From Maribacter orientalis (GTDB lineage Bacteria; Bacteroidota; Bacteroidia; Flavobacteriales; Flavobacteriaceae), in contig NZ_FNZN01000002.1 in assembly GCF_900109345.1 (NCBI RefSeq), positions 248,001 to 312,000 of the forward strand: DNA of 64,000 bases, given 5' to 3'. The notes below the pieces were generated by a model, which worked only from the letters and a program-made list of their open reading frames with translations, did no database searches and was not told the origin of the DNA. Positions 1-14,293 of this stretch are shown one piece after another. The first letter of the stretch is position 1. The number at the start of each line of letters is the position of its first letter. The position numbers and the translations under genes are program-made.

Positions 1-1
1 T

Positions 2-628
2 TCAGATAAAGGTGATTTTATTATCAACGAGTATTTTGACATTGCCGCAACCACAAAAAAACATCTTGACACAGGTTCAAAAGTGCTTACACTGGGTGGA
101 GACCATTCCATAACTTTCCCGATTATAAAAGCATATCACGACCAACACCCTAAACTAGACATATTACATATAGATGCGCATGCTGACCTATACCACGACT
201 ATGAAGGCGACCCCTATTCTCATGCTTGCCCTTTTGCACGTATTATGGAAAATGGTTTTGCTGTTAAATTGGTTCAGGTCGGTATCAGAACTTTAAATCC
301 ACATCAAGCGGCACAGGCAAAAAAATACAAGGTTGATATACACGAAATGCGCAATTTAGACCTAAACAATATTCCCAAATTTAAAAATCCGCTATATATT
401 TCTTTAGATATGGATGGTTTTGACCCAGCCTTTGCGCCTGGCGTATCGCACCATGAACCAGGCGGACTTTCATCACGACAAGTAATCAATTTAATTCAAA
501 GTATCGACACGGAAGTTGTCGGGGCTGATATCGTAGAATATAATCCGGATCGTGATTTTCAAGATATGACCGCGTACTTAGCTGCGAAAATGATGAAAGA
601 ACTTTTAGGCAAAATGTTGGAACAGTAA
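2..628 (+). CDS. Agmatinase/arginase-family ureohydrolase (5' end outside window)
   Basis: The frame is open from base 2, so the start lies left of the window and about a third of a normal 280-320 residue ureohydrolase is missing. Visible manganese-binding motifs are GGDHS, DAHADL and SLDMDGFDP, the standard set of the arginase/agmatinase/formimidoylglutamase superfamily. These enzymes hydrolyse a guanidino group to urea; agmatinase would give putrescine. It sits 5' of an arginine biosynthesis operon, but the two are separated by a glycosyltransferase gene and a promoter, so co-regulation is not implied. Exact substrate cannot be fixed from the part seen; agmatinase (speB-like) is my best guess. 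The nearest internal GTG at 83 is not the true start, since homology continues before it. Confidence 0.85.
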   Translation, partial: SDKGDFIINEYFDIAATTKKHLDTGSKVLTLGGDHSITFPIIKAYHDQHPKLDILHIDAHADLYHDYEGDPYSHACPFARIMENGFAVKLVQVGIRTLNPHQAAQAKKYKVDIHEMRNLDLNNIPKFKNPLYISLDMDGFDPAFAPGVSHHEPGGLSSRQVINLIQSIDTEVVGADIVEYNPDRDFQDMTAYLAAKMMKELLGKMLEQ

Positions 629-681: not shown

Positions 682-2025
682 ATGTCGAATTCCATTAGTA
701 GATTTTTGAAACTCCATAAGGTTTCTTCGATATTAGTGGCATTGAGCATAGTTTTCTATTTTACTTTTGCTTACCATTTGCAACGAACCGATTTCCCCAA
801 ACTACTGGGACTCTTTTTTGCACTTTTTCTGCTCTACTTTAAACTTATTCAGTTCGAAAAATGGAATCTTAAATTTCTATTGGTAGTAGGCATCATTTTT
901 AGACTGGTTTTCATTTGTACGGAGCCGAATCTATCGCAAGACTTTCATCGGTTTATTTGGGATGGGCATTTGGTCGCCAATGCTATAAACCCATATTTGC
1001 ATACACCCAATGATATAATTGAAAATATCGCGAATGTGATTCCTAATGCTCATGAATTGTATGAGGGCATGGGTAGTTTAAGCGCAAAACATTACAGTAA
1101 TTACCCGCCATTAAATCAACTGATCTTCGGTTTGACCGCCCTTATTGGTGGTAAAAGCATGTTCGGTTCACTGGTTGTAATGCGCATAACGATACTTTTA
1201 GCCGATATAGGTATTTTCTATTTTGGAAGAAAGCTGTTGAAAAACCTCAACAAATCGCCTCAATTAATTTTCTGGTACTTTTTAAATCCATTAGTAATAA
1301 TAGAGCTTACCGGCAACCTTCATTTTGAAGGTGTTATGCTATTCTTCTTTATACTTTCCATGTTTCTTATATCAATAAACAAATGGATATGGGCTGCCGT
1401 TATCATGGCCTGTTCTATCTCTATTAAGCTGGTACCTTTGTTGTTTTTACCACTCTTCCTTAGGTATTTTGGATGGAAGAAAAGCATGATGTTCTATAGT
1501 GTAATTGGAGTAACAACTCTCTTGCTATTCCTACCTTTTTACACACCAGAATTCATAGCCAACTACACCAAAACTATAAGCCTGTGGTTTTCCAATTTTG
1601 AGTTTAACGCCAGCATATACAATATCATAAAACAAACTGCGATACAATTTGATGCCAAGCCATGGGAATTTATAAAGGTCTATGGTAAAATTACGCCGCT
1701 ATTAACCATACTAGTGGTAGTGTTATTTACATTTCTTCCTAAAAGAAAAGATTTAAACCAGGTACTTGCCTCTATGATGTGGGTTTTGACCATTTATTAT
1801 TTTATGTCGACTACCCTGCACCCTTGGTATTGTATTTTTCTTGTGCTACTTGCCATTTTTACTTCTTACAGATATGCTATAATATGGTCTGCAGCTATTG
1901 TACTTAGCTATTACACATATTCACAGGCCGATTTCAAGGAAAACATGTGGTTACTCACTATTGAATATTGTGCAGTATATGGCTTTCTATTTTACGAAAT
2001 AATCGCACATAATAACAAAAAGTAA
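682..2025 (+). CDS. GT-C type polytopic membrane glycosyltransferase (mannosyltransferase-like)
   Basis: About 447 residues with roughly ten to twelve hydrophobic segments spread over the whole length, typical of GT-C/GT87-like (DUF2029) enzymes that use polyprenyl-phosphate sugars. An acidic loop after the second or third segment carries SQDFHRFIWDG, resembling the conserved Asp-containing first periplasmic loop of that family. I chose the ATG at 682; an in-frame TTG at 661 would add seven residues (LINQPP) that look like leader sequence. It follows the ureohydrolase gene by about 50 bases and could be read with it. Donor and acceptor sugars cannot be told from sequence. Family placement is fairly sure, function is inferred. 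Confidence 0.65.
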   Translation: MSNSISRFLKLHKVSSILVALSIVFYFTFAYHLQRTDFPKLLGLFFALFLLYFKLIQFEKWNLKFLLVVGIIFRLVFICTEPNLSQDFHRFIWDGHLVANAINPYLHTPNDIIENIANVIPNAHELYEGMGSLSAKHYSNYPPLNQLIFGLTALIGGKSMFGSLVVMRITILLADIGIFYFGRKLLKNLNKSPQLIFWYFLNPLVIIELTGNLHFEGVMLFFFILSMFLISINKWIWAAVIMACSISIKLVPLLFLPLFLRYFGWKKSMMFYSVIGVTTLLLFLPFYTPEFIANYTKTISLWFSNFEFNASIYNIIKQTAIQFDAKPWEFIKVYGKITPLLTILVVVLFTFLPKRKDLNQVLASMMWVLTIYYFMSTTLHPWYCIFLVLLAIFTSYRYAIIWSAAIVLSYYTYSQADFKENMWLLTIEYCAVYGFLFYEIIAHNNKK

Positions 2026-2065
2026 AGTTTTTGTAAAAAATTTCTCATGGGTGTTGTCAAATAAA

Positions 2066-2074
2066 TATAATTTG
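2066..2074 (+). promoter_or_regulatory. Possible -7 element of the arginine operon promoter
   Basis: TATAATTTG resembles the Bacteroidota -7 consensus TAnnTTTG with one extra base. It lies 16 bases before the leader-peptide ATG, so transcription would start just ahead of that frame. A well-spaced upstream TTG is not clear (the nearest, at 2054, is too close), so this is a weak call. Confidence 0.35.
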
Positions 2075-2089
2075 TACATTTACCCTGTA

Positions 2090-2176
2090 ATGAACGAAGA
2101 AATCTACTTTTTATATAGTACCGTGAGCCCAGTTGCTCTTGCGCGTCCGTTCACATCTCGCCGTCGTCGCCCGTAA
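2090..2176 (+). CDS. Arginine leader peptide (28 codons, ends RRRRP)
   Basis: An ATG frame of 28 codons stands alone in the space between the glycosyltransferase gene and the first gene of the arginine operon. It starts MNEEIYFLYS and ends RPFTSRRRRP followed by TAA; five of 28 residues are Arg, four of them consecutive (codons CGC CGT CGT CGC at 2159-2170). CGN codons are rare in the AT-rich neighbouring genes, which prefer AGA, so this string stands out in composition. A short peptide with a run of the pathway's product amino acid directly upstream of the biosynthetic operon is the classic layout of ribosome-mediated attenuation (as in his, leu, thr and trp leaders). What is seen: the frame, the codon run and its position. 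What is inferred: that ribosome stalling for charged tRNA-Arg controls the operon. Confidence 0.8.
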   Translation: MNEEIYFLYSTVSPVALARPFTSRRRRP

Positions 2177-2242
2177 GGGTAATATATATTTATGGAATTA
2201 GGTGAGTCCATTTCCGCACAGAAAATCAAAATTATTTTTTTT
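2157..2242 (+). promoter_or_regulatory. Putative attenuator region behind the Arg leader peptide
   Basis: After the leader stop there is a hairpin ATGGA/TCCAT (2192-2196 with 2207-2211) whose loop contains GGTGAG (2201-2206). That loop can instead pair with CTCGCC (2157-2162), which overlaps the first codons of the Arg run; the pairing is six bases with one G-U. A small CCC-GTAA-GGG hairpin covers the leader stop. A run of eight T (2235-2242) follows, 22 bases before the GNAT start, but no strong GC-rich stem abuts it, so I cannot point to a convincing intrinsic terminator. Mutually exclusive pairing with the Arg codons fits an attenuator; folding was done by eye only. Confidence 0.4.
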
Positions 2243-2264
2243 ACACTTTTAAATCTATTTGGCA

Positions 2265-2897
2265 ATGAACTTAATTGTTGCTAACGAATCACATTTTAAA
2301 TACGCCCAAGATATTTGTGACACCATAGCAGAATCTGCTAAAGTTCGTGGTACAGGTATTGCAAAAAGAACTCCTGAATATATACAGAGAAAACTATCTA
2401 ACGGTAATGCCGTATTGGCACTAGACGGAGATAAATTTGCAGGCTTCTGTTATATAGAAGTATGGGGGCATGAGAAATTTGTTGCAAATTCGGGACTTAT
2501 AGTACACCCAGATTATAGAGGTCAAGGACTTGCCAAGAGTATAAAAGCCAAAATTTTTGAACTCAGCAGAAAAAAGTTTCCCGATGCTAAGATATTTGGC
2601 ATAACCACAGGACTAGCAGTGATGAAAATCAACTACGAATTGGGATACAAACCTGTAACCTTTTCTGAACTGACCGATGACCCAGAATTCTGGAAAGGCT
2701 GCCAAACCTGTAAGAACTTCGATATTCTTACTCGAACAGAGCAAAAAATGTGCTTATGCACCGGTATGCTCTATGACGCTAATAACAAGAAAAAAACTGT
2801 AGAAGTCAAGGAAGTAAATAGCAAAGCCTTTACAAGATTAAAAAGTATCAAGGAAAATTTGTTCTTGAGAAAAAAAGAAGAGAAGAGTAAATCATAA
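2265..2897 (+). CDS. GNAT acyltransferase, probable N-acyl(succinyl)glutamate synthase of the arginine operon
   Basis: About 210 residues. A GNAT core lies at roughly 15-135, with the acyl-CoA pyrophosphate-binding signature in HPDYRGQGLAKS. As the first gene behind the Arg leader peptide and the only acyltransferase in a cluster that otherwise has every step from argB to argH, it is the natural candidate to acylate glutamate, the job of ArgA or ArgJ elsewhere. Because the ArgF' here has the succinylornithine-type residue, the acyl donor may be succinyl-CoA. Odd feature: a cysteine cluster in the C-terminal third (GCQTC, then MCLCTG about 20 residues later) that could bind metal or sense redox state. 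I chose ATG at 2265 over the in-frame TTG at 2259. The tail is very Lys/Glu-rich. Function is from context. Confidence 0.65.
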   Translation: MNLIVANESHFKYAQDICDTIAESAKVRGTGIAKRTPEYIQRKLSNGNAVLALDGDKFAGFCYIEVWGHEKFVANSGLIVHPDYRGQGLAKSIKAKIFELSRKKFPDAKIFGITTGLAVMKINYELGYKPVTFSELTDDPEFWKGCQTCKNFDILTRTEQKMCLCTGMLYDANNKKKTVEVKEVNSKAFTRLKSIKENLFLRKKEEKSKS

Positions 2898-3041
2898 TTC
2901 TGATATATAATAATTAGAAAATAGAGTAGAGAAAAAGGAACGTACAATAAATTGAAGGTTTATTCCCTCGAAACCAGCATCTTTTTCTATTCAAATTGAA
3001 TCATATAATTACCCGGAATTACCGGAATTGAACACATTAAA

Positions 3042-4229
3042 ATGAAGAAATTAGTACTTGCATACAGCGGCGGATTGGATACATCTTATTGCGCAAAATA
3101 TTTATCAAAAGATAAAGGATTCGAAGTACACGCGGTAAGCGTTAATACGGGTGGATTCTCATCTGAAGAAATAAAAGAAATTGAGCGCAAAGCACTTGAG
3201 TTAGGGGCAACATCATATACCTCAATCGATGCTGTACAGACGTTCTATGAAAAAGTAGTGAAGTATCTAATTTTTGGCAATGTACTTAAAAACAACACCT
3301 ACCCCCTTTCTGTTAGTGCCGAACGAATTGTACAGGCAATCGAGATTGTCAACTATGCTAAAAAAGTAGGTGCCAAATATATTGCGCATGGTAGTACTGG
3401 CGCTGGTAACGACCAAGTACGTTTCGATATGATTTTTCAAATCATTGCACCAGAAATTGAAATCATCACCCCTATTCGTGATCATAAATTGGCCAGAGAA
3501 GCTGAAATTGCATATTTGAAAGAAAATGGAGTTGATTACCCTTGGGAAAAAGCCAAATATTCAATCAACAGAGGATTATGGGGAACTTCGGTCGGTGGTG
3601 AAGAAACCTTAACTTCCGATAAAGCTTTGCCCGATAGTGCATACCCAAGCCAGTTACAAGAAAAAAATCCGTCCGATATCACCTTAACTTTTGAAAAGGG
3701 AGAATTGGTTGCTGTTAACGGTGAAAAAGATACTCCGGTAAAAAACATTGAAAAGGTTGAAGCCATAGCCTCTAAATATGCCATTGGTAGAGATATTCAC
3801 GTTGGCGACACTATTATAGGTACTAAAGGAAGAGTAGGTTTTGAGGCTCCTGCTTCATTGATTATCATAAAAGCACACCATTTGTTAGAGAAGCATACCC
3901 TTACCAAATGGCAACAATACCAAAAAGAGCAACAAGGTAATTTCTATGGCATGCTATTGCATGAAGGCAATTATCTAGATGCGGTAATGAGAAATATAGA
4001 AACCTTTTTGACCGACACCCAAAAAACAGTTTCTGGTGATGTATTTGTTGGCTTGTACCCTTTTCAGTTTAGGTTGCATGGCATTTCATCTAAACATGAT
4101 TTAATGACCGATGCTTTCGGTAAATATGGAGAGGTTAATAAAGGCTGGTCTGCAGATGATGCTAAAGGCTTTATAAAAATTCTTTCCAATTCAGGCAGAA
4201 TTTATAACCATGTAAATGGAAATATTTAG
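3042..4229 (+). CDS. argG: Argininosuccinate synthase
   Basis: Ligates citrulline and aspartate with ATP to argininosuccinate. The PP-loop AYSGGLDTSY is at residues 8-17; the family blocks around GSTGAGNDQVRF and KYSINRGLWG are present, and 395 residues matches the family's roughly 400. It follows the GNAT gene after 144 bases with no evident terminator, so it probably belongs to the same transcript. The gap holds a short partial repeat (CCGGAATTACCGGAATT near 3014-3029). Confidence 0.97.
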   Translation: MKKLVLAYSGGLDTSYCAKYLSKDKGFEVHAVSVNTGGFSSEEIKEIERKALELGATSYTSIDAVQTFYEKVVKYLIFGNVLKNNTYPLSVSAERIVQAIEIVNYAKKVGAKYIAHGSTGAGNDQVRFDMIFQIIAPEIEIITPIRDHKLAREAEIAYLKENGVDYPWEKAKYSINRGLWGTSVGGEETLTSDKALPDSAYPSQLQEKNPSDITLTFEKGELVAVNGEKDTPVKNIEKVEAIASKYAIGRDIHVGDTIIGTKGRVGFEAPASLIIIKAHHLLEKHTLTKWQQYQKEQQGNFYGMLLHEGNYLDAVMRNIETFLTDTQKTVSGDVFVGLYPFQFRLHGISSKHDLMTDAFGKYGEVNKGWSADDAKGFIKILSNSGRIYNHVNGNI

Positions 4230-4291
4230 AAGATTGGAAAACTAATTATACTGTCCGGTCTAGCACGGTAGATACCTAAAAAGTTTAAAAA

Positions 4292-5266
4292 ATGATTAAA
4301 GCAGGCATTATAGGCGGATCAGGTTATACGGGGGGCGAACTTATTCGAATCCTATTAAACCATCCGGCTACGGAAATAGATTTTATATACAGTACTACAA
4401 GAGCTGGCAAAAGAGTAACCACAGCACACCCCGATTTGTTGGGAGTTACAGATTTAGAATTTACTGGAAATGTAAACCTGAATGTAGATGTTGTATTCCT
4501 ATGTTTGGGCCACGGTAATTCTACAGCATTTTTAAAAGAACATGATTTTTCATCTGATACTAAAATCATTGATTTAAGTAATGACTTTAGGTTACATAAA
4601 GATGCCGATTTTGATGGTAAGCCATTCGTATACGGGCTCCCAGAATTAAACAAAACCGAAATTGAAAATGCTCAATATATTGCCAACCCAGGTTGTTTTG
4701 CAACTGCTATTCAATTAGCATTGCTTCCTTTAGCGAAGGCAAATTTTTTGGAGAACGAGGTTCATATTAATGCCGTTACGGGCAGTACTGGTGCAGGTAT
4801 TAGTCCGTCAGCAACCTCGCATTTTTCATGGCGAAACAATAATGTAAGCTGGTATAAACCTTTTACCCATCAACATTTGGGTGAAATCAACGAGAGTTTA
4901 CATTCGCTTCAAAACAATACCGGAAATTTATTTTTTATGCCAAATAGAGGAAATTTCACTCGTGGAATTTTAGCCACTTCGTATACCAAATTTGAAGGTG
5001 AATTGGCAGATGCAGAAAAAATCTATCAAGATTTCTATAAGAATGCTGTCTTTACGCAAATTTCTGAGCAACCTATCAACTTAAAACAAGTAGTGAATAC
5101 CAATCAATGTCATGTGCATTTACATAAACACGATGATATTTTATTGGTTACATCAGCTATAGATAATTTATTAAAGGGTGCTTCGGGTCAGGCCGTTCAG
5201 AATATGAATTTAATATTCGGACTAGAGGAAGATTTGGGTCTTAATTTGAAAGCTGGGGTATTTTAA
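4292..5266 (+). CDS. argC: N-acyl-gamma-glutamyl-phosphate reductase
   Basis: Reduces the acyl-glutamyl phosphate made by ArgB to the semialdehyde with NADPH. The N-terminal dinucleotide motif GGSGYTGGEL is at residues 8-17 and the catalytic cysteine is Cys135 in ANPGCFATA. The 324-residue length is the short ArgC form. It starts 62 bases after argG. In the succinyl variant of the pathway proposed for Bacteroidota it would act on the N-succinyl compound; the sequence alone does not separate acetyl from succinyl specificity. Confidence 0.96.
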   Translation: MIKAGIIGGSGYTGGELIRILLNHPATEIDFIYSTTRAGKRVTTAHPDLLGVTDLEFTGNVNLNVDVVFLCLGHGNSTAFLKEHDFSSDTKIIDLSNDFRLHKDADFDGKPFVYGLPELNKTEIENAQYIANPGCFATAIQLALLPLAKANFLENEVHINAVTGSTGAGISPSATSHFSWRNNNVSWYKPFTHQHLGEINESLHSLQNNTGNLFFMPNRGNFTRGILATSYTKFEGELADAEKIYQDFYKNAVFTQISEQPINLKQVVNTNQCHVHLHKHDDILLVTSAIDNLLKGASGQAVQNMNLIFGLEEDLGLNLKAGVF

Positions 5267-5414
5267 TATGGTTGATGGAAAATATATTTTAATTATTATC
5301 CCAAGTATGGGATTTAGAAATTGAATATTAGCAAAACATTATAAATAATGAATTCAAAGTTGTTCTTAAAACGTACTTATTACACTGAGCTCATTACCAA
5401 ACACAAATAAAATT

Positions 5415-6209
5415 ATGAAAATAGCCATTATAGGTGCGGGCAACTTAGGACTTTCTATTGCAAACGGAATTCTAAACAGTAATGGTGCTACCACTATGTA
5501 CCTTACTAAAAGAGATACAAAATCTATTCTCGATTTTGAAAAACACAACAAGGTGACTGTAACGACTGATAATCGTTTGGCTATTCAGAATTCCGATATT
5601 TTAATATTTGCCGTACAACCTGTTCATTTTGCTGGAATCTTAGAAAGTGTAAAAGATTTATTGAACGAAAATCATGTGATTATTTCTACCATAACCGGTT
5701 TTGGTATCGACAAAATAGAGGCTGTTATAGGCAAGGACAATTACATTGTTAGAAGCATGCCCAATACAGCTATTTCGGTAGGTAAGTCAATGACTTGTAT
5801 TTGCAGTAACGAGAAAGGTAAAAAACGTATTGATCTAACAAAGGCTATTTTTAACAGGATGGGACATTCTATGGAAATTCCTGAAAACCAAATGCAAGCT
5901 GCTACAGTAATTTGTGCTAGTGGAGTAGCTTTTTGGATGCGATTAATTCGTGCAACAACCCAAGGTGCCATTCAGTTAGGTTTTGATGCCCAAGAGGCTC
6001 AAGAACTGGCCATGCATACGTGTAATGGTGCTGCAAGTTTACTTATAGAATCAGGTAATCATCCTGAAGAAGAAATAGATCGGGTTACTACACCTATGGG
6101 TTGTACCATAACAGGACTAAACGAAATGGAACATCAAGGTTTAAGCTCATCATTAATACAAGGTATTATTGCCTCTTATGATAAGATTACCGAATTTAAA
6201 ACCAAGTAA
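5415..6209 (+). CDS. proC: Pyrroline-5-carboxylate reductase
   Basis: Last step of proline synthesis, P5C to proline with NAD(P)H. The Rossmann motif IGAGNLGLSIANGI opens the protein at residues 5-18, and the C-terminal region keeps the P5CR block TTPMGCTITGLNEM. Length 264 residues is normal. The gene sits between argC and argD rather than with proA and proB, all in one direction, so proline and arginine synthesis share this transcript. The 148-base gap before it includes a 6-bp hairpin (ATCCCA/TGGGAT at 5298-5313) without a T tract. Confidence 0.93.
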   Translation: MKIAIIGAGNLGLSIANGILNSNGATTMYLTKRDTKSILDFEKHNKVTVTTDNRLAIQNSDILIFAVQPVHFAGILESVKDLLNENHVIISTITGFGIDKIEAVIGKDNYIVRSMPNTAISVGKSMTCICSNEKGKKRIDLTKAIFNRMGHSMEIPENQMQAATVICASGVAFWMRLIRATTQGAIQLGFDAQEAQELAMHTCNGAASLLIESGNHPEEEIDRVTTPMGCTITGLNEMEHQGLSSSLIQGIIASYDKITEFKTK

Positions 6210-6256
6210 AAACAAGCTTCCAAACCAGTTCTTTTTGAACTTGAATTTTTTGAATT

Positions 6257-7384
6257 ATGAAATTATTCGACGTTTACCCATTATATAATGTTACCCCGGT
6301 TTCCGCCAAAGGAATAGTTGTAACTGACGACAAAGGTCAAGATTATTTAGATTTCTACGGTGGTCATGCCGTAATATCCATTGGTCATACTCACCCACAT
6401 TACGTAAAGCGTTTAAAAGACCAATTAGACAAAATAGGTTTTTACAGCAATGCAGTTCAAAATCCATTACAAGAAGAACTTGCTGAAAAACTTGGCGTAC
6501 TATCCAATTGCGAAGATTATAATCTTTTTATGTGTAATTCGGGGGCCGAAGCGAATGAAAATGCCTTAAAAATGGCATCATTTGTAACAGGCAAATCTAA
6601 AGTAATTGCATTTAAAAATGGTTTCCATGGTCGTACCTCCGCAGCTGTAGCTGCGACGGATAATCCTTCTATTAACGCATCGATTAACCTACAGCAAAAA
6701 GTAAACTTTTTGGAACTTAACGATATTAAAGGTTTTAAAAATGAGATTGTTAAAAAGAATATTTGTGCTGTAATTATAGAATCGATACAAGGTGTAGGTG
6801 GTTTAGATGAACCGACAACAGAATTTTTTCAAAAAGTTGCATCACTCTGTAAAGAAAATGGTGTTTTTTTAATTGCCGATGAAGTACAGTGCGGATTTGG
6901 TAGAAGTGGTAAATTCTTTGGGTTTCAGCATCACAACATACAACCAGATATCATAAGTATTGCCAAAGGCATGGGAAATGGATTTCCTGTAGGTGGTGTT
7001 TTAATTCATGAAAGTATTAGTGCTAAATTCGGGATGCTAGGCACCACATTTGGTGGTAATCATTTAGCCTGTGTAGCTACTTTAGCGGTTCTTGAAGTAT
7101 TAGAAAAAGAAAATCTCATACAGAATGCTGAAGAATTAGGCATTTACTTTAACGAAAAGGCGAAGGAAATTCCGCAAGTAAAACGCGTAAAAGGTCGGGG
7201 GTTGATGCTTGGACTTGAGTTTGATTTTCAGGTAGCCGATCTACGCAAAAAATTGATATACGAACATCATTTATTTACAGGCGGTGCCAAAGACAAAACG
7301 GTGCTACGAATTTTACCTGCTTTAAATATTACAAAACAAGATTTAGATATTTTCTTTAAGGCTCTTAAGACTGCTTTAGCATGA
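6257..7384 (+). CDS. argD: N-acylornithine aminotransferase
   Basis: Class III PLP aminotransferase that converts N-acyl-glutamate semialdehyde to N-acylornithine with glutamate as donor. Seen: the family start LFDVYPLYNVTPV, the PLP-phosphate region NSGAEANENALK, the DEVQCGFGRSG block and the Schiff-base lysine in SIAKGMGNGFP. The 375-residue length is typical. Its stop codon overlaps the proA start by four bases (ATGA), which suggests translational coupling. Could be active on succinyl substrates; the ornithine aminotransferase alternative is less likely given the operon. Confidence 0.94.
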   Translation: MKLFDVYPLYNVTPVSAKGIVVTDDKGQDYLDFYGGHAVISIGHTHPHYVKRLKDQLDKIGFYSNAVQNPLQEELAEKLGVLSNCEDYNLFMCNSGAEANENALKMASFVTGKSKVIAFKNGFHGRTSAAVAATDNPSINASINLQQKVNFLELNDIKGFKNEIVKKNICAVIIESIQGVGGLDEPTTEFFQKVASLCKENGVFLIADEVQCGFGRSGKFFGFQHHNIQPDIISIAKGMGNGFPVGGVLIHESISAKFGMLGTTFGGNHLACVATLAVLEVLEKENLIQNAEELGIYFNEKAKEIPQVKRVKGRGLMLGLEFDFQVADLRKKLIYEHHLFTGGAKDKTVLRILPALNITKQDLDIFFKALKTALA

Positions 7385-8577
7385 AAAAAACTCTCAGTTT
7401 AGAAAAAAGAAATGCCGTACTATTACGCATGGCCGACTTAGTAAGACAAGAAGAATCGATATTACTATCTGCCAATGATAAAGATTTAAGTTCCTTTGAG
7501 TCTGAAGATATTGCGATGGTCGACCGATTAAAGGTGAATAAAAAGAAGGTAGGCGAAATGGTCTATTCTTTAAAACAATTGGCCTCACTTGACGACCCTT
7601 TACATGTTGAGCGCTTTCAATTTACTCATGATAACGGACTTGAAATAAGTAATAAAACCGCCCCTTTTGGAACGATAATGATTATTTACGAATCTAGACC
7701 TGATGTTACTATTGAAGCTGCAGGCATTGCTTTTAAATCTGGAAATAAAATTTTATTGAAAGGTGGAAAAGAATCGTTGAATTCAAACTTAGTTCTCGTT
7801 AATCTATGGCATAAAGCATTAGAAGCTTGTGATTGTTCTAAAGATTGGATAACCTATCTCAATTTTTCAAGAGAAGAAACTCAGAAATTCTTAGAAAAGC
7901 CGACTGAAAAATTAGACCTAATTGTACCTAGAGGTGGTGAGCGATTGATTGCATTTGTAAAACAACATGCAAAGTGCCCCGTTATCGTTAGTGGTAGAGG
8001 TAATAATTTTGTTTATGTTTCACATGAAGCCGATTTGCAAATGGCCTTAGACATTATTATCAATGCCAAGACCACTAAAATATCGGCTTGCAATGCTGTT
8101 GATAAGGTTATTATTTCGAGAGATTTACCACGTAAAATGGAATTCTTAAATCTTTTGCTACAATCTTTAAAAAAGTATAATGTAGAAATTTTAACCGATG
8201 CCAAATTAGCAGGATTAGAGGGCACTACACAAATGGATAATAAATCGGTATGGTACGAAGAGTTTTTAGATTATAAAATCGTCATTGGTCAAGTACCTGA
8301 TGTTGAAGAGGCTATTCAACACATCAATACTTATGGCGGCGGACATTCGGCAGTAATTATTAGCAAAAACGAAGAAGAAGCAGATACATTTATGCAATCT
8401 GTAGATACTGCAGCCGTATACCATAATGCATCAACCCGCTTTACAGATGGCGGTCAATTTGGTCTTGGTGGTGAATTAGCGATAAGCACTGACAAGCTAC
8501 ACCAACGTGGCCCAATTGGCCTTCAACATTTGGTGACCAATAAGTGGTATGTAAAAGGAAATGGACAGGTAAGGTAA
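7381..8577 (+). CDS. proA: Glutamate-5-semialdehyde dehydrogenase (gamma-glutamyl phosphate reductase)
   Basis: Reduces gamma-glutamyl phosphate to glutamate semialdehyde in proline synthesis. Family blocks seen are IYESRPDVTIEAAG, the glycine-rich LKGGKES and the active-site cysteine in KISACNAVDK. The 398-residue length is near the usual 415. It overlaps argD by four bases and is followed by proB after 65 bases, the reverse of the more common proB-proA order. Confidence 0.95.
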   Translation: MKKTLSLEKRNAVLLRMADLVRQEESILLSANDKDLSSFESEDIAMVDRLKVNKKKVGEMVYSLKQLASLDDPLHVERFQFTHDNGLEISNKTAPFGTIMIIYESRPDVTIEAAGIAFKSGNKILLKGGKESLNSNLVLVNLWHKALEACDCSKDWITYLNFSREETQKFLEKPTEKLDLIVPRGGERLIAFVKQHAKCPVIVSGRGNNFVYVSHEADLQMALDIIINAKTTKISACNAVDKVIISRDLPRKMEFLNLLLQSLKKYNVEILTDAKLAGLEGTTQMDNKSVWYEEFLDYKIVIGQVPDVEEAIQHINTYGGGHSAVIISKNEEEADTFMQSVDTAAVYHNASTRFTDGGQFGLGGELAISTDKLHQRGPIGLQHLVTNKWYVKGNGQVR

Positions 8578-8642
8578 GAGATAATCACAATTTCTTTATT
8601 CAACAAAACTGTTGATGAAGTCTAAATGGAAAATAGGCCGTA

Positions 8643-9410
8643 ATGTTAAAAAAAAGAATATTATTAAAAATAGGTTCTAATACCTTAACCAAAGATACCG
8701 ACCATATCTCTCGAGGTAAAATTGAAGATATTGGTAGACAAATAGCAGCCTTAAAAGAAGAATACGAATTTATTATTGTAAGTTCTGGAGCAATTGCGGC
8801 CGCTAGGCAATTTGTAAAACTAGAGCATAACGGTGAGGAAATTAATATAAAACAGGCTCTAGCCTCTATTGGTCAGCCGCATCTAATGCGTATTTTTCAA
8901 GAAAATTTTCGTGAGTTAGGCTTGTTTACTTCACAATGTCTTTTATCCTATTCCGACTTTGAAAAGGAACAATCGAGAGTGAATATCAAAAACACCATAA
9001 ATGTTTTGGTAGCCAATAATTTCATTCCTATTATCAATGAAAATGATACGGTTGCTACCGATGAAATAAAATTTGGTGACAACGATAAATTAGCAGGTTT
9101 AACAGCTGCTCTTTTATCTGCAGATATATTAATTATTGCCACAAATACAGATGGTATTTACACGAAGGCTTCTTTATTATCTTCAGCGCCAAAAACTATT
9201 GAAGAAGTTACAGATTTAAGTGATTTACTTCATGAAATTGGGGAATCGAAATCTACCCACGGTACTGGTGGTATGCAATCTAAAATTGACGCTGCAACCA
9301 TTGCCCAACTAGCAGGTATTGAGACCTGGATCACCAATGGTTTAAATGATAATTTCATTACGGATGCTATTGAAAACAAAAGCACATTTACAAAAATTAA
9401 AGCAACATGA
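8643..9410 (+). CDS. proB: Glutamate 5-kinase, short form without PUA domain
   Basis: Amino-acid kinase fold protein of 255 residues. Conserved pieces are LLKIGSNTLT at the start, SSGAIAAA for the phosphate-binding turn, the glutamate-binding NENDTV and the ATP-binding segment TNTDGIYTK. It ends after the kinase domain, without the C-terminal PUA domain of the 367-residue E. coli enzyme. It phosphorylates glutamate, the first proline step, and is normally feedback-inhibited by proline. The stop overlaps the argF' start by four bases, tying proline and arginine genes together in translation. Confidence 0.94.
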   Translation: MLKKRILLKIGSNTLTKDTDHISRGKIEDIGRQIAALKEEYEFIIVSSGAIAAARQFVKLEHNGEEINIKQALASIGQPHLMRIFQENFRELGLFTSQCLLSYSDFEKEQSRVNIKNTINVLVANNFIPIINENDTVATDEIKFGDNDKLAGLTAALLSADILIIATNTDGIYTKASLLSSAPKTIEEVTDLSDLLHEIGESKSTHGTGGMQSKIDAATIAQLAGIETWITNGLNDNFITDAIENKSTFTKIKAT

Positions 9411-10339
9411 ATTACCTTTCAATAAATGATATAGATTCTTTATCTACTTGGGTAAAAGAAGCTATTTCCCTTAAAAAACAGCCTAAAAAATATAAAGCAT
9501 TAGGTAGTGATAAAACTATAGGACTTTTATTTTTCAACAACTCACTCCGTACACGATTAAGTACCCAAAAAGCAGCAATGAATTTAGGTATGGAAGTAAT
9601 TGTCATGAACTTTGGTAGTGAAGGTTGGGCATTAGAGTATGCCGACGGCTCGATTATGGACCAAGGTACTTCTGAGCATATAAAAGAAGCAGCACAGGTA
9701 ATATCTCAATATTGTGATATTATTGCTATACGTGCTTTTGCTGGTTTAGTTGATAAAGAGAAAGATGAAGCAGAGGAAGTATTAAACGGATTTAAAAAAT
9801 ACGCCAGTGTGCCAATTGTAAACATGGAAAGTTCCGTAGGTCACCCTTTACAAGCACTTACCGATGCCATAACCCTAGAGGAACATAATTTTAAAAACAA
9901 TCCGAAAGTGGTATTATCATGGGCTCCACACCCAAAGGCTTTACCACATGCCGTTGCAAATTCATTTATACAGATGATGCAAAAGCAAAATGCAGAATTC
10001 GTGATTACCCATCCGAAAGGATATGAGTTGGACCCAAATATCACCAAAGATTCTAAAATTGAGTATGACCAAGAAAAAGCTTTAGAAAATGCCGATTTTG
10101 TATATGTCAAAAACTGGAGTAGCTACACCGATTATGGCAAGGTAAAATCACAAGACAAAAATTGGCAAATGACCTTAAAAAAATTGGGTAAAGCCAAATT
10201 CATGCACTGCCTTCCCGTTCGTAGAAATGTGGTCGTAGCTGATGAAGTATTAGATAATAAACAGTCATTGGTCATTGAGCAAGCGAATAATAGAACCTAT
10301 GCCGCACAATTGGTATTGAAAAAAATACTTGAAGACTAA
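9407..10339 (+). CDS. argF': ArgF' N-acylornithine carbamoyltransferase, probably succinylornithine type
   Basis: Carbamoyl phosphate-binding motif SLRTRLS is at residues 46-52 (the family's STRT is replaced, as in Bacteroides SOTCase) and the ornithine-side motif is HCLPVRRN. This marks the acylornithine clade rather than ordinary OTCase. The residue that separates the two subtypes (Glu92 in Xanthomonas AOTCase, Pro90 in Bacteroides fragilis SOTCase) aligns by eye with Ser89 here, in MDQGTSEHI. Published mutants of Glu92 to Pro, Ser, Ala or Val turned AOTCase into SOTCase, so Ser predicts N-succinylornithine as substrate. Product would be N-succinylcitrulline, deacylated by the ArgE in this operon. 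Confidence 0.9.
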   Translation: MNYLSINDIDSLSTWVKEAISLKKQPKKYKALGSDKTIGLLFFNNSLRTRLSTQKAAMNLGMEVIVMNFGSEGWALEYADGSIMDQGTSEHIKEAAQVISQYCDIIAIRAFAGLVDKEKDEAEEVLNGFKKYASVPIVNMESSVGHPLQALTDAITLEEHNFKNNPKVVLSWAPHPKALPHAVANSFIQMMQKQNAEFVITHPKGYELDPNITKDSKIEYDQEKALENADFVYVKNWSSYTDYGKVKSQDKNWQMTLKKLGKAKFMHCLPVRRNVVVADEVLDNKQSLVIEQANNRTYAAQLVLKKILED

Positions 10340-10352
10340 AAATAATCATACA

Positions 10353-11105
10353 GTGAAGAAACTCGAAAATAAAGTAGCAATAATTACAGGGGCAACTAGT
10401 GGCATGGGCAAGGCTATAGCCATTACATTTGTAGCCAACGGTGCTAAGGTTATCTTATCGGGTAGAGATGAAACTCGAGGAAATGAACTATCAAATGAAT
10501 TGGGTGAGAATGCTATTTTTATTGCCGGTGATATTACAAATGCAGCTTACAACAAAGAACTGATTACAGCTGCAATTGACCATTTTGGTAAGCTTGACAT
10601 TCTTTCGCTCAACGCTGGCATTTTAGGTTTAGGAAGCGTTACCGAACTACCAGGTGAGGTGTGGAAAAATACAATAGACACTAATCTATCTTCCATTTTC
10701 TACCTTTCAAAATATGGCATCCCCGAATTACAAAAGAACGAAGGTTCTTCTATTTTAATCAATGCTTCGATAGCGGCATATAAAAGTTTCCCTAATCATC
10801 CAGCCTATTGCGCCTCAAAGGCAGGTTCACTTGCATTAATGAGACAAATGGCGGTTGAATACGCTCCAGAAATCAGGGTAAATGCTATGTGTCCAGGTCC
10901 GGTCGACACACCGCTTCTTTGGGATTCTGCCAAGGCATTTGAACATCCGAAAAAGGCAGTTGAAAACGCAGCGAACAAAACCTTATTAAAACGATTAGGC
11001 CAACCAAAAGACATCGCAAATCTTGCTTTATTCCTAGTTTCCGATGATGCTTCATGGATAACCGGTTCAGCAATGACGATTGATGGCGGAATCTTAAATG
11101 CATAA
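10353..11105 (+). CDS. SDR family oxidoreductase inside the arginine operon
   Basis: Classical short-chain dehydrogenase of about 250 residues: cofactor motif TGATSGMGKAIA, NAG motif LNAGILG, catalytic Ser in INASIAAY, YxxxK as YCASK, and the C-terminal ITGSAMTIDGG. I favour the GTG at 10353, 14 bases after the argF' stop, giving the usual KKLENKVAIITG start; an in-frame TTG at 10329 inside argF' is the alternative. It lies tightly between argF' and argB, yet no arginine or proline step needs an SDR. Substrate unknown; it may be a passenger or a side-product repair enzyme. Confidence 0.88.
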   Translation: MKKLENKVAIITGATSGMGKAIAITFVANGAKVILSGRDETRGNELSNELGENAIFIAGDITNAAYNKELITAAIDHFGKLDILSLNAGILGLGSVTELPGEVWKNTIDTNLSSIFYLSKYGIPELQKNEGSSILINASIAAYKSFPNHPAYCASKAGSLALMRQMAVEYAPEIRVNAMCPGPVDTPLLWDSAKAFEHPKKAVENAANKTLLKRLGQPKDIANLALFLVSDDASWITGSAMTIDGGILNA

Positions 11106-11106
11106 A

Positions 11107-11886
11107 ATGAAAGACAAGTTATCGGTAGTGAAAATTGGTGGAAACGTCATAGAAGATGAAAAGGCCCTAGATATATTCTTAACAGCATTTGCTAAATTGG
11201 GAGGACTGAAAATTTTGGTACATGGTGGCGGAAAATTAGCAACTCAATTAGCAACAAGGCTCGGTATTGAATCTAAATTGATAGATGGAAGGCGCATAAC
11301 CGATAAAGATACCGTTGACATCATAACTATGGTTTATGGTGGTTTGGTCAACAAGAAGATTGTCGCCCAACTTCAGGCAAAAAATACAAATGCCATAGGA
11401 TTAAGCGGTGCTGACGGCAATAGTATACATGCACACAAAAGACCTGTGAAGGATATTGATTACGGATTTGTAGGTGATGTTGACGGTATTAATTCCGAAT
11501 TATTAACAAGCCTTTTATCCATAAACCTCACTCCTATTTTTTGCGCTATTTCGCATGATGGCAATGGTCAGTTATTAAATACAAATGCCGACACCATTGC
11601 TTCTGAAATCGCTATAGGGATGGCACAGCATTTCGAAACAACCCTTTATTATTGTTTTGAAAAGAAAGGTGTTCTATTAGATATTGCTGACGATAATAGC
11701 GTAGTGAAACACATAAACACTATTAAATACAATGAACTATTATCCGACGGAATAATTGCTGATGGCATGCTACCTAAACTGCATAATTGCTTTCATGCGT
11801 TACAAAATAATGTTGAAAAAGTATGTTTAGGCGATGTTAGCATGCTCGACAAAAAAACCGAACTGTTCACGACATTAAAACTCTAA
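11107..11886 (+). CDS. argB: N-acylglutamate kinase
   Basis: Phosphorylates N-acetyl- or N-succinylglutamate. Amino-acid kinase motifs are VVKIGGNVIED at the N-terminus, the phosphate-binding LVHGGGKLA, and LNTNADTIASEIA near the C-terminal third. At about 259 residues it is the short, usually arginine-insensitive form, lacking the N-terminal helix of feedback-inhibited NAGKs, so control would fall on transcription or attenuation. Start: ATG at 11107 lies one base after the SDR stop; an ATG at 11098 overlapping the SDR end would add three residues. Confidence 0.93.
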   Translation: MKDKLSVVKIGGNVIEDEKALDIFLTAFAKLGGLKILVHGGGKLATQLATRLGIESKLIDGRRITDKDTVDIITMVYGGLVNKKIVAQLQAKNTNAIGLSGADGNSIHAHKRPVKDIDYGFVGDVDGINSELLTSLLSINLTPIFCAISHDGNGQLLNTNADTIASEIAIGMAQHFETTLYYCFEKKGVLLDIADDNSVVKHINTIKYNELLSDGIIADGMLPKLHNCFHALQNNVEKVCLGDVSMLDKKTELFTTLKL

Positions 11887-11887
11887 G

Positions 11888-12952
11888 ATGAACCAAACAG
11901 AACTTACAGAAAGTGCAATAAAATTATTGAAAGAATTAATTTCAATAGAATCTTTTTCTAAGGAAGAGGATAAAACTGCAGATGCAATTCAAGCTTGGTT
12001 GGCTCAATATGACATACCAACTGAACGTGACCTCAACAATATAATCGCGAAAAACAAATTTTGGGATGACGATAAGCCAACCCTTCTCTTAAATTCACAT
12101 CATGATACGGTAAAACCGAATACCGCATATACGAAAGATCCATTTCATCCACATATTGAAGATGGTAAGTTATTTGGATTGGGGAGTAATGATGCAGGCG
12201 GTCCGTTAGTGTCGTTACTAGCAACATTTGTGAACTATTACGATTCTGAAGACCTCAACCACAACATTTTAATGGTAGCATCAGCCGAAGAAGAAAATGC
12301 CGGCGAAAATAGTTTACGCGGATTATTACCAAAACTACCGCATATAGATTTAGCTATTGTAGGCGAACCTACTTTGATGCAACTTGCCATAGCCGAAAAA
12401 GGCTTGGTTGTATTTGATGCCGTGGTAAAAGGTACTCCTTCTCACGCAGCACACCCTAATGATGACAATTCCATCTATAACTCCATTAAAGTATTAGAAT
12501 GGTTTAAAAACTACACATTCGACAAAACTTCTGAAGCATTGGGTGATGTAAAAATGACGGTTACCCAAATTAGGGCAGGATCTCAGCACAACGTTGTTCC
12601 CGCACAAGTAGATATGGTGGTTGACGTTCGTGTAAATGATGCCTATAGTAATAAAGAAATTGCAGATTTACTAAAGAAGGATGCCCCATGCGAATTAAAG
12701 GAGCGATCTTTACGCCTCAATTCATCGAAAATAGATAAAGACCATCCGTTAGTGAAATCTGGTATTGCATTAGGTAGAACAACCTACGGCTCACCTACCC
12801 TTTCGGATCAAGCAGCATTAAGTTGTCAGTCACTAAAATTAGGTCCTGGTGACAGTACACGTTCGCATTCTGCCAACGAATTTATCTATGTTCACGAAAT
12901 TGAAGAAGGCATAGATTTGTATATTAAAATATTAAAAGGCTACTTGCAATAA
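11888..12952 (+). CDS. argE: M20 family deacylase, N-acylcitrulline/ornithine deacetylase type
   Basis: Metallopeptidase-fold M20 hydrolase of 354 residues. Visible zinc-site pieces are NSHHDTV, GSNDAGG, the catalytic-glutamate region SAEEEN and GEPT; the dimerisation domain follows at about 170-275. It begins one base after argB. In a pathway that carbamoylates the acylated ornithine, this enzyme would act after ArgF', removing the acyl group from N-acylcitrulline to free citrulline for ArgG. Acetyl versus succinyl specificity is not readable here. Confidence 0.9.
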   Translation: MNQTELTESAIKLLKELISIESFSKEEDKTADAIQAWLAQYDIPTERDLNNIIAKNKFWDDDKPTLLLNSHHDTVKPNTAYTKDPFHPHIEDGKLFGLGSNDAGGPLVSLLATFVNYYDSEDLNHNILMVASAEEENAGENSLRGLLPKLPHIDLAIVGEPTLMQLAIAEKGLVVFDAVVKGTPSHAAHPNDDNSIYNSIKVLEWFKNYTFDKTSEALGDVKMTVTQIRAGSQHNVVPAQVDMVVDVRVNDAYSNKEIADLLKKDAPCELKERSLRLNSSKIDKDHPLVKSGIALGRTTYGSPTLSDQAALSCQSLKLGPGDSTRSHSANEFIYVHEIEEGIDLYIKILKGYLQ

Positions 12953-12976
12953 ACAATAATCATTTAGCTATGCGCA

Positions 12977-13002
12977 ATTGATAATTGTTCATTGATAATT
13001 GT
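12977..13002 (+). repeat. Direct repeat ATTGATAATTGT in the argE-argH gap
   Basis: Two copies of a 12-mer (12977-12988 and 12991-13002) separated by TC, 14 bases before argH. This type of low-complexity ATTGATAATTG repeat is common between flavobacterial genes; I see no specific function. Confidence 0.6.
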
Positions 13003-13015
13003 AAACTGACTTAAA

Positions 13016-14293
13016 ATGAAACTCTGGGATAAAGGATTTAGCACTGATAAAAAGATTGACCATTTCACCGTCGGTAATGATAGGGAATTGGATTTGGTTT
13101 TAGCCAAGTACGATGTAATCGCATCTAAAGCACATGCTAAAATGCTAGGTGAAATTGGTTTATTAACTCCCAAAGAAACCAAAGAACTTGTTAATGAGCT
13201 TAATAATATAGCCGCAAGAATAGAAAAGGGAACATTTTCAATTGAAAAGTCTTTTGAGGACATGCATTCTAAAATAGAATACATGCTTACCCTTAGTTTA
13301 GGAGATACAGGTAAAAAAATTCACACGGCACGTTCTAGAAACGACCAAGTTTTAGTGGCGATGCATCTATATTTAAAAGATGAACTGACAGAAATAAAAT
13401 CGATGACCAAGTCGCTTTTCAATCTTCTGTTGGTAAAAGCGCAAGAGCATAAAGATGTTATGTTGCCTGGGTATACGCATTTACAAATTGCAATGCCTTC
13501 CTCTTTCGGATTGTGGTTTTCTGCCTATGCAGAAAGCCTAATCGATGATTTATATTTTATTGATGCTGCGTATAAAGTGGTAGACCAAAATCCTTTAGGT
13601 AGTGCTGCAGGTTACGGAAGTTCATTTGCTATTGACCGAAGTTTCACTACTAAAGAAATGGGATTCAGCACCTTAAAATACAATGTTGTTGCTGCTCAAA
13701 TGAGTAGAGGAAAAGCTGAAAAAGCTACTGCATTCGGTATTGCCAATATCGCTGCAACACTTTCTAAAATGGCTATGGATATATGTTTGTACATGAGCCA
13801 GAACTTTAACTTTATTTCTTTCCCCGACGAGTTGACAACTGGTTCGAGTATTATGCCACATAAGAAAAATCCTGATGTATTTGAGTTGGTACGTGGCAAG
13901 TGTAATAAATTACAGTCTATACCAAATCAATTGACCTTAATTATCAATAATCTACCTAGTGGGTATCATAGAGATTTACAACTGGTAAAGGAAATAATCG
14001 TTCCAGCGATACAAGACATGAAGGCCTGTTTGGAAATATTGACTTTTAGTCTTAAGGAAATAAGAGTGAACGACCATATTTTGGAAGACCCCAAGTATGA
14101 TTATTTATTCAGTGTAGATACACTAAATGAACTTGTACAAAATGGCATGCCATTTAGGGATGCTTACAAGAAAATGGGTAAAGAAATCAATGAAGGAACA
14201 TTCATACCTAAAAGAGATATTCATCACACACATGAAGGTAGTTTAGGGAATTTATGTTTAAAGGAGATTAATGATAAAATGAAAAAGGTTTAA
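13016..14293 (+). CDS. argH: Argininosuccinate lyase
   Basis: Cleaves argininosuccinate to arginine and fumarate. The fumarase/aspartase superfamily signature is present as GSSIMPHKKNPDVFE, with the family N-terminus LWDKGFSTDK and the substrate-binding HTARSRNDQV and PGYTHLQIA blocks. 425 residues is slightly short of the usual 450-460. It is the last gene of the operon. The gene ends in a tandem 11-bp repeat that also supplies the stop codon of the convergent yihY-like gene; no hairpin terminator is visible. Confidence 0.96.
   Translation: MKLWDKGFSTDKKIDHFTVGNDRELDLVLAKYDVIASKAHAKMLGEIGLLTPKETKELVNELNNIAARIEKGTFSIEKSFEDMHSKIEYMLTLSLGDTGKKIHTARSRNDQVLVAMHLYLKDELTEIKSMTKSLFNLLLVKAQEHKDVMLPGYTHLQIAMPSSFGLWFSAYAESLIDDLYFIDAAYKVVDQNPLGSAAGYGSSFAIDRSFTTKEMGFSTLKYNVVAAQMSRGKAEKATAFGIANIAATLSKMAMDICLYMSQNFNFISFPDELTTGSSIMPHKKNPDVFELVRGKCNKLQSIPNQLTLIINNLPSGYHRDLQLVKEIIVPAIQDMKACLEILTFSLKEIRVNDHILEDPKYDYLFSVDTLNELVQNGMPFRDAYKKMGKEINEGTFIPKRDIHHTHEGSLGNLCLKEINDKMKKV

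Follow-up and report, generated by a model that had tools for sequence, protein, structure and literature searches.

The locus described here raises the question of how a large family of bacteria that lacks ArgR can control the synthesis of arginine. It lies in a window of 64,000 nucleotides from the genome of Maribacter orientalis (all positions below are those of this window), and consists of a short reading frame closed by arginine codons that stands directly before an arginine and proline biosynthesis operon. Repressor–operator control by ArgR would serve the same metabolic output, and the initial annotation of this DNA had proposed that the operon is governed without it; genome searches agree, in that neither ArgR Pfam domain was found in the organism's own genome and the C-terminal domain was found in none of 299 genomes of the Flavobacteriaceae, both domains being detected in a control Bacteroides genome. 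We propose, with a probability of roughly 0.7, that control is exercised by a translated arginine leader peptide acting together with a dedicated RNA module, with Rho as the best candidate for the output. Such a system would provide an answer for this ArgR-less family and would add arginine to those amino acids whose synthesis responds to a leader peptide that senses the product.

The operon and its leader ORF

The twelve genes attributed to an arg/pro operon could be identified directly downstream of the leader on the + strand, in the order GNAT, argG, argC, proC, argD, proA, proB, an N-acetylornithine-carbamoyltransferase-like gene, an SDR gene, argB, an argE-like gene and argH. The first encodes a GNAT acetyltransferase (2265–2897; Pfam PF00583/PF13508), and the rest of the presumed operon, argG to argH, occupies 3042–14293. 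The GNAT protein has a cysteine-rich part (CQTCKNFD...KMCLCTGMLYD), is matched by no NCBIfam model, and is possibly the missing N-acetylglutamate synthase. By eye, the gene at the upstream edge of the window (1–628) is a putative ureohydrolase of the arginase/agmatinase type, reading ...HIDAHADLYHDY...SLDMDGFDPAFAPG...

The leader ORF (2090–2176, + strand) is an ATG frame of 28 codons encoding MNEEIYFLYSTVSPVALARPFTSRRRRP, in which four consecutive arginine codons, CGC CGT CGT CGC (2159–2170), are followed by a proline codon and the TAA stop at 2174–2176; direct reading of the sequence thus bears out the frame and codons as annotated. The annotation had also called CGN codons uncommon in this neighbourhood, and counts from 42 long window ORFs give CGT and CGC together 26 % of arginine codons, the commonest being AGA at 49 %. 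An arginine-rich end of the ...RP-stop kind occurs at the same place in all 30 of the genus loci examined and in most of the family, and on this comparison the ORF is far beyond chance occurrence.

To describe the family as a whole we used 160 leaders, taken from sampled family and genus regions, deduplicated, and having an open frame and a start codon. Arginine accounts for 32 % of their last 13 residues versus 2 % of the remainder (4.5 arginines per leader), and for 7 % and 4 % in the +1 and +2 frames; the middle of the peptide varies and the arginine-rich end is kept. The arginine codon that lies inside the hairpin P1, described below, served as the anchor and carries no weight by itself; the codon immediately 5' of P1 specifies arginine in 149 of the 160. 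Outside P1, CGT or CGC is used in 84 % of cases. When 21 equally long leaders of the genus are compared, their three final arginines are constant while two of the codons alternate between CGT and CGC, and in two other members of the genus one of the three is AGA; this interchange at the same codon indicates that the amino acid is what selection maintains, CGY codons being preferred. Where the P1 loop holds no stop, the frame stays open across P1 and terminates shortly after it (...RPLGV-stop, ...RRTSVRV-stop). An alignment of relatives had been suggested in the initial annotation as a check, and in both genus and family leaders the arginine run and the frame prove more conserved than the rest. 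We regard it as very probable that this is an arginine leader peptide serving the arg/pro operon. The bases near leader codons 5–7 (often CACATA, AACATA or TACATA) recur between genera despite the variable peptide, and may be a signal at the RNA level.

A sigma-A promoter is predicted at 2054–2082 (+ strand), comprising TTG at 2054–2056, an 18 nt spacing and a TACATTTA box at 2075–2082. A TAnnTTTN box ends 6–8 nt 5' of the ATG in 71 of the 76 leaders that share the layout of the window. If the box is placed at −12 to −5, as in the start-site map of F. psychrophilum (PMC9723704), transcription is predicted to start at about 2087, about 3 nt 5' of the ATG, which would make the transcript nearly leaderless. 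The same prediction covers this genome's trp and his leaders, which have a similar promoter-like box 7 nt before their ATG.

A two-hairpin RNA module

The leader ORF is overlapped by an RNA of two hairpins, P1 and P2, that continues 3' of it. P1 (2168–2180, + strand; (C)GCCC-GTAA-GGGT) holds the TAA stop in its loop, and takes the general form (C)GCCC-loop-GGGU(G), with the stop codon within the loop in most genomes. It is seen in both of our alignments: A2, which is trimmed and was not fitted to any structure, and A3, which is larger, model-based and leans towards its own structure. P1 hardly varies and offers few compensatory changes, its support coming mainly from conservation. P2 (2194–2215, + strand; GGAATT-A-GG-TGAGT-CC-ATTTCC) consists of a stem that covaries throughout the family, a bulged A and a nearly invariant tip, GG-UGNGU-CC; stem variants include GGAAAU/AUUUCC, GGAACY/GGUUCC and GGAGUU/AACUCC, among others. 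In A2 five pairs change on both sides, and the covariation score was reached in none of 500 shuffles; the counts in A3 point in the same direction (8 pairs, 93 cells with two-sided changes, again 0 of 500 shuffles). These shuffles ignore kinship, and related sequences inflate the counts, but most of the signal is gone when the partner is shifted by one to three columns. Comparison of sequences thus establishes P2, and P1 less strongly.

Two smaller helices lie within the ORF. P0 (GAGC/GCTC, 2125–2138, + strand), 5' of the arginine run, has moderate evidence in that its arms co-vary in other genera, as judged by eye, and its region folds better on average than shuffled copies (mean z −0.81, n=160). 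Weak to moderate evidence points to a possible helix around it (2091–2153, + strand), in which TGAACG at 2091–2096 would pair with CGTTCA at 2148–2153; the full 5-bp pairing occurs in 33 % of leaders versus 17 % after shuffling. A helix scan of 55 leaders returned P2 together with a weaker helix joining the start of the leader to the bases before the arginine run, and found nothing that links the arginine region to P2 or to the T-run downstream.

Strong matches to P2 are single copy in close relatives and occur at this locus only; elsewhere matches were weak, and six that were inspected had no arg genes nearby. No Rfam family matches the window or 16 related loci at the gathering score. Two further roles for P2 were considered and set aside. 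Pairing of its loop with the arginine codons and P1 arm (GGUG with CGCC) appears in some single folds, but is lost in loci with a GCAC/GUGC P1 and is absent among the covarying helices. The tip also resembles a Shine–Dalgarno site, AGGUGA being similar to the anti-SD complement, but position six of this sequence is not constant, and about 60 nt separate it from the GNAT ATG.

Distribution of the element

The GNAT protein served to find the locus, which was present in 35 of 36 genus genomes and in 197 of 299 family genomes. The window is part of a genome of 4.16 Mb, and the nearest named record found for it is Maribacter arcticus, at 91 % DNA identity over about 3 kb. A model of P1 and P2, R1, was used to search genomes of the order and the phylum, and gave one clear match per positive genome, always just 5' of the operon. 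The order search yielded 32 matches, each 5' of GNAT-argG or equal to a known locus of that kind, with all positives belonging to the Flavobacteriaceae; 30 of these loci, and two from the phylum search, stand directly before GNAT-argG. The ratio of 32 in 395 is no prevalence figure, the filters being strict and the sample rich in one genus that has no match; when 95 sampled family loci were chosen because they carry the GNAT gene, R1 was matched in 93. R1 had no match in many other Flavobacteriaceae genomes, and so the system is not universal in the family. Matches outside it had E values above 0.01 with no arg genes found there, and viral contigs gave no matches of the element.

At least 118 exact pattern matches are present in the named genome collection. 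Among the matches listed, 114 lie directly before a GNAT gene, two are near the end of the available DNA, and two precede another acetyltransferase, which is followed by argG. The element is thus kept where the first gene differs, and seems to go with the operon rather than with the GNAT gene.

Output of the leader and alternative explanations

The stop codon close to a U-tract had been taken, together with the arginine run, as the standard signs of attenuation, in which a ribosome stalled at the arginine codons would favour an antiterminator over an intrinsic terminator. The part of this that stands is a short ORF that closes with consecutive codons for the end product, and a T-run does exist at 2235–2242, with T enriched across the family at 31–46 nt counted from where the P2 tip begins; such terminators, moreover, do follow the trp and his leader ORFs in this genome. 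The terminator itself is missing from the arg leader: the T-run starts 20 nt after P2, outside any terminator, a consensus scan of the + strand from 1950 to 3100 finds no terminator-like site, and on these two grounds we reject an intrinsic terminator at the T-run. Nor did a mutually exclusive antiterminator emerge from folds of 129 sequences, in which P1 and P2 are the only recurring hairpins, or from the scan of 55 leaders, in a search that was non-exhaustive. Textbook attenuation is improbable on this evidence. What follows P2 is a G-depleted stretch (2216–2264, + strand) that contains the T-run, reaches to the GNAT ATG and is of nearly constant length in the family. Its G content is 3.5–4.4 %, versus about 14 % in control flanks (including that before argG), and a fraction of 0.73 of its bases is predicted to be unpaired, versus 0.56 in the argG flank. 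The stretch fits a loading region for Rho, but also an easily translated start region. P2 and a G-depleted stretch with no terminator suggest another output, perhaps Rho-dependent; we consider it likely that some mechanism other than intrinsic termination provides the output, with Rho as a candidate for it. A further alternative is translational control of the GNAT gene, by coupling or by occlusion (compare S. aureus rbfL) and with polarity on the remaining operon. In its favour is the near-constant distance from the P2 tip to the GNAT ATG (59–70 nt, 5–95 % range in the family), but the leader ends 88 nt before that ATG, too far for direct occlusion, and the element is retained in the two loci with another first gene; we judge it still less probable than a terminator.

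SpeFL is a leader peptide that senses ornithine, and the arginine leader might similarly act through its nascent peptide, sensing arginine or ornithine in the exit tunnel and stalling at ...RRP-stop. Proline before the stop is indeed common and the last residues are the most conserved, but the peptides are very different upstream of the arginines, some end in ...RPLGV, ...RRTSVRV or ...RRTFVRA instead of RRP, and the constancy of RP is explained by CGC CCG being also part of P1; such arrest is more doubtful again than translational control. Least probable of all is an element that works purely as RNA, bound by a protein or ligand, with the frame incidental. It draws on the tip of P2, nearly invariant above a varying stem, and on the single strong copy of P2 per genome at the arg locus, but it leaves unexplained why arginine is conserved codon by codon 5' of P1 with synonymous exchange that includes AGA, why the frame is kept open even without the stop in P1, and why the start codon keeps a fixed distance from the promoter box. 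P2 may nevertheless bind a factor in addition to leader translation.

For the translated leader acting with its RNA module, the following course can be envisaged. Transcription would begin very close to the ATG, a few nucleotides upstream, and translation of the leader would follow immediately. Under a shortage of arginyl-tRNA, the ribosome would pause at the terminal CGY codons of the ORF and cover the 5' arm of P1; judged from its footprint, a ribosome with any of the arginine codons 24–27 in the A site should reach to about 2171–2180, leaving P2 free. When arginine is plentiful, it would arrive at the stop, usually in the P1 loop, and leave, after which both P1 and P2 could form. Since the stalled ribosome would cover P1 and not P2, and both could form after its release, P1 would be the part able to report the presence of the ribosome. 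The ribosome state that RNA polymerase meets would then decide entry into the GNAT-argG...argH operon, probably with no intrinsic terminator as output, the best candidate being Rho, which would act on the G-poor and largely unpaired RNA 3' of P2, P2 itself forming part of the signal. The ORF, its arginine codons and frame, its link to the arg operon, P2 (P1 less firmly) and the absence of ArgR rest on sequence comparison; the sensing of tRNA-Arg charging, the direction of control, the roles of P1 and P2 and the part played by Rho are what we infer.

More tentatively, and with rather less confidence than an even chance, we suggest that P1 and P2 represent a new kind of attenuator output, in which a small RNA structure and a nearly leaderless arginine leader control elongation, through Rho or another factor reading the P2 tip, without an intrinsic terminator and in the stead of ArgR in the Flavobacteriaceae, and that in many genera a second arginine leader upstream has doubled the sensor. 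This would be a family-wide RNA element whose readout falls outside the textbook scheme of terminator and antiterminator.

Relation to known leader peptides

The closest comparisons are in the same genome, where a trp leader (MKNLIANTWWWNNLRITT) precedes trpE with a terminator GGCTTGTCATCACGACAAGCC-TTCCTTATTTT, and a his leader (MKNRTTHHHIHTHALAR) precedes hisG with a terminator AAAACCCGTTTGAGCAATCAAACGGGTTTT. All are short ORFs rich in codons for the end product, with a promoter box shortly before them and the operon behind, but the trp and his leaders are followed by a strong hairpin and T-run, whereas the arg leader has P1 and P2 instead. E. coli tnaC and Salmonella mgtL/corL are Rho-linked leader peptides, in which the stall signals tryptophan or Mg2+. 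The arg leader would resemble them in that translation of the leader determines whether the operon is transcribed, with no classical terminator involved, and in the G-poor RNA that follows, if Rho has the role suggested here; the stall signal, unlike theirs, would be arginine codons. Arginine is sensed in S. aureus by rbfL, on whose arginine codons ribosomes pause under arginine shortage, but that leader is 8 residues long, its arginine codons are AGA/AGG, and it obstructs the start site of a regulator of biofilms (PMC13009471); the arg leader instead uses CGY codons, precedes a biosynthesis operon and is joined to a conserved RNA module. In F. psychrophilum, signs that leader peptides attenuate amino-acid operons have been reported, as have conserved 5' elements upstream of pheA and hisG; the main text of that study names no arginine leader, although its Table S7 may list one (PMC9723704). 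No published leader peptide of this kind for arginine biosynthesis was found in the accessible portion of the open-access literature, and the novelty of the arg leader is provisional.

A second arginine leader in other loci

In 52 of the 85 loci that lack the layout of the window there is a second ATG frame with an arginine-rich end, of the MKNLKNKIRCTIPGLPVRSRRRF type and typically reading MKNLKNKIRC.IPGLPVRSRRRF. It terminates about 48 nt upstream of the leader described above and about 170 nt 5' of the P2 tip; shuffled sequence put through the same test gave 1.5 %. Two matches among the 76 loci with the window layout look like gene ends. Loci of other layouts, in other genera, are thus likely to carry tandem arginine sensors, which the window does not. 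In several of these loci a small GCTAAT...ATTAGC hairpin surrounds the stop codon of the second leader.
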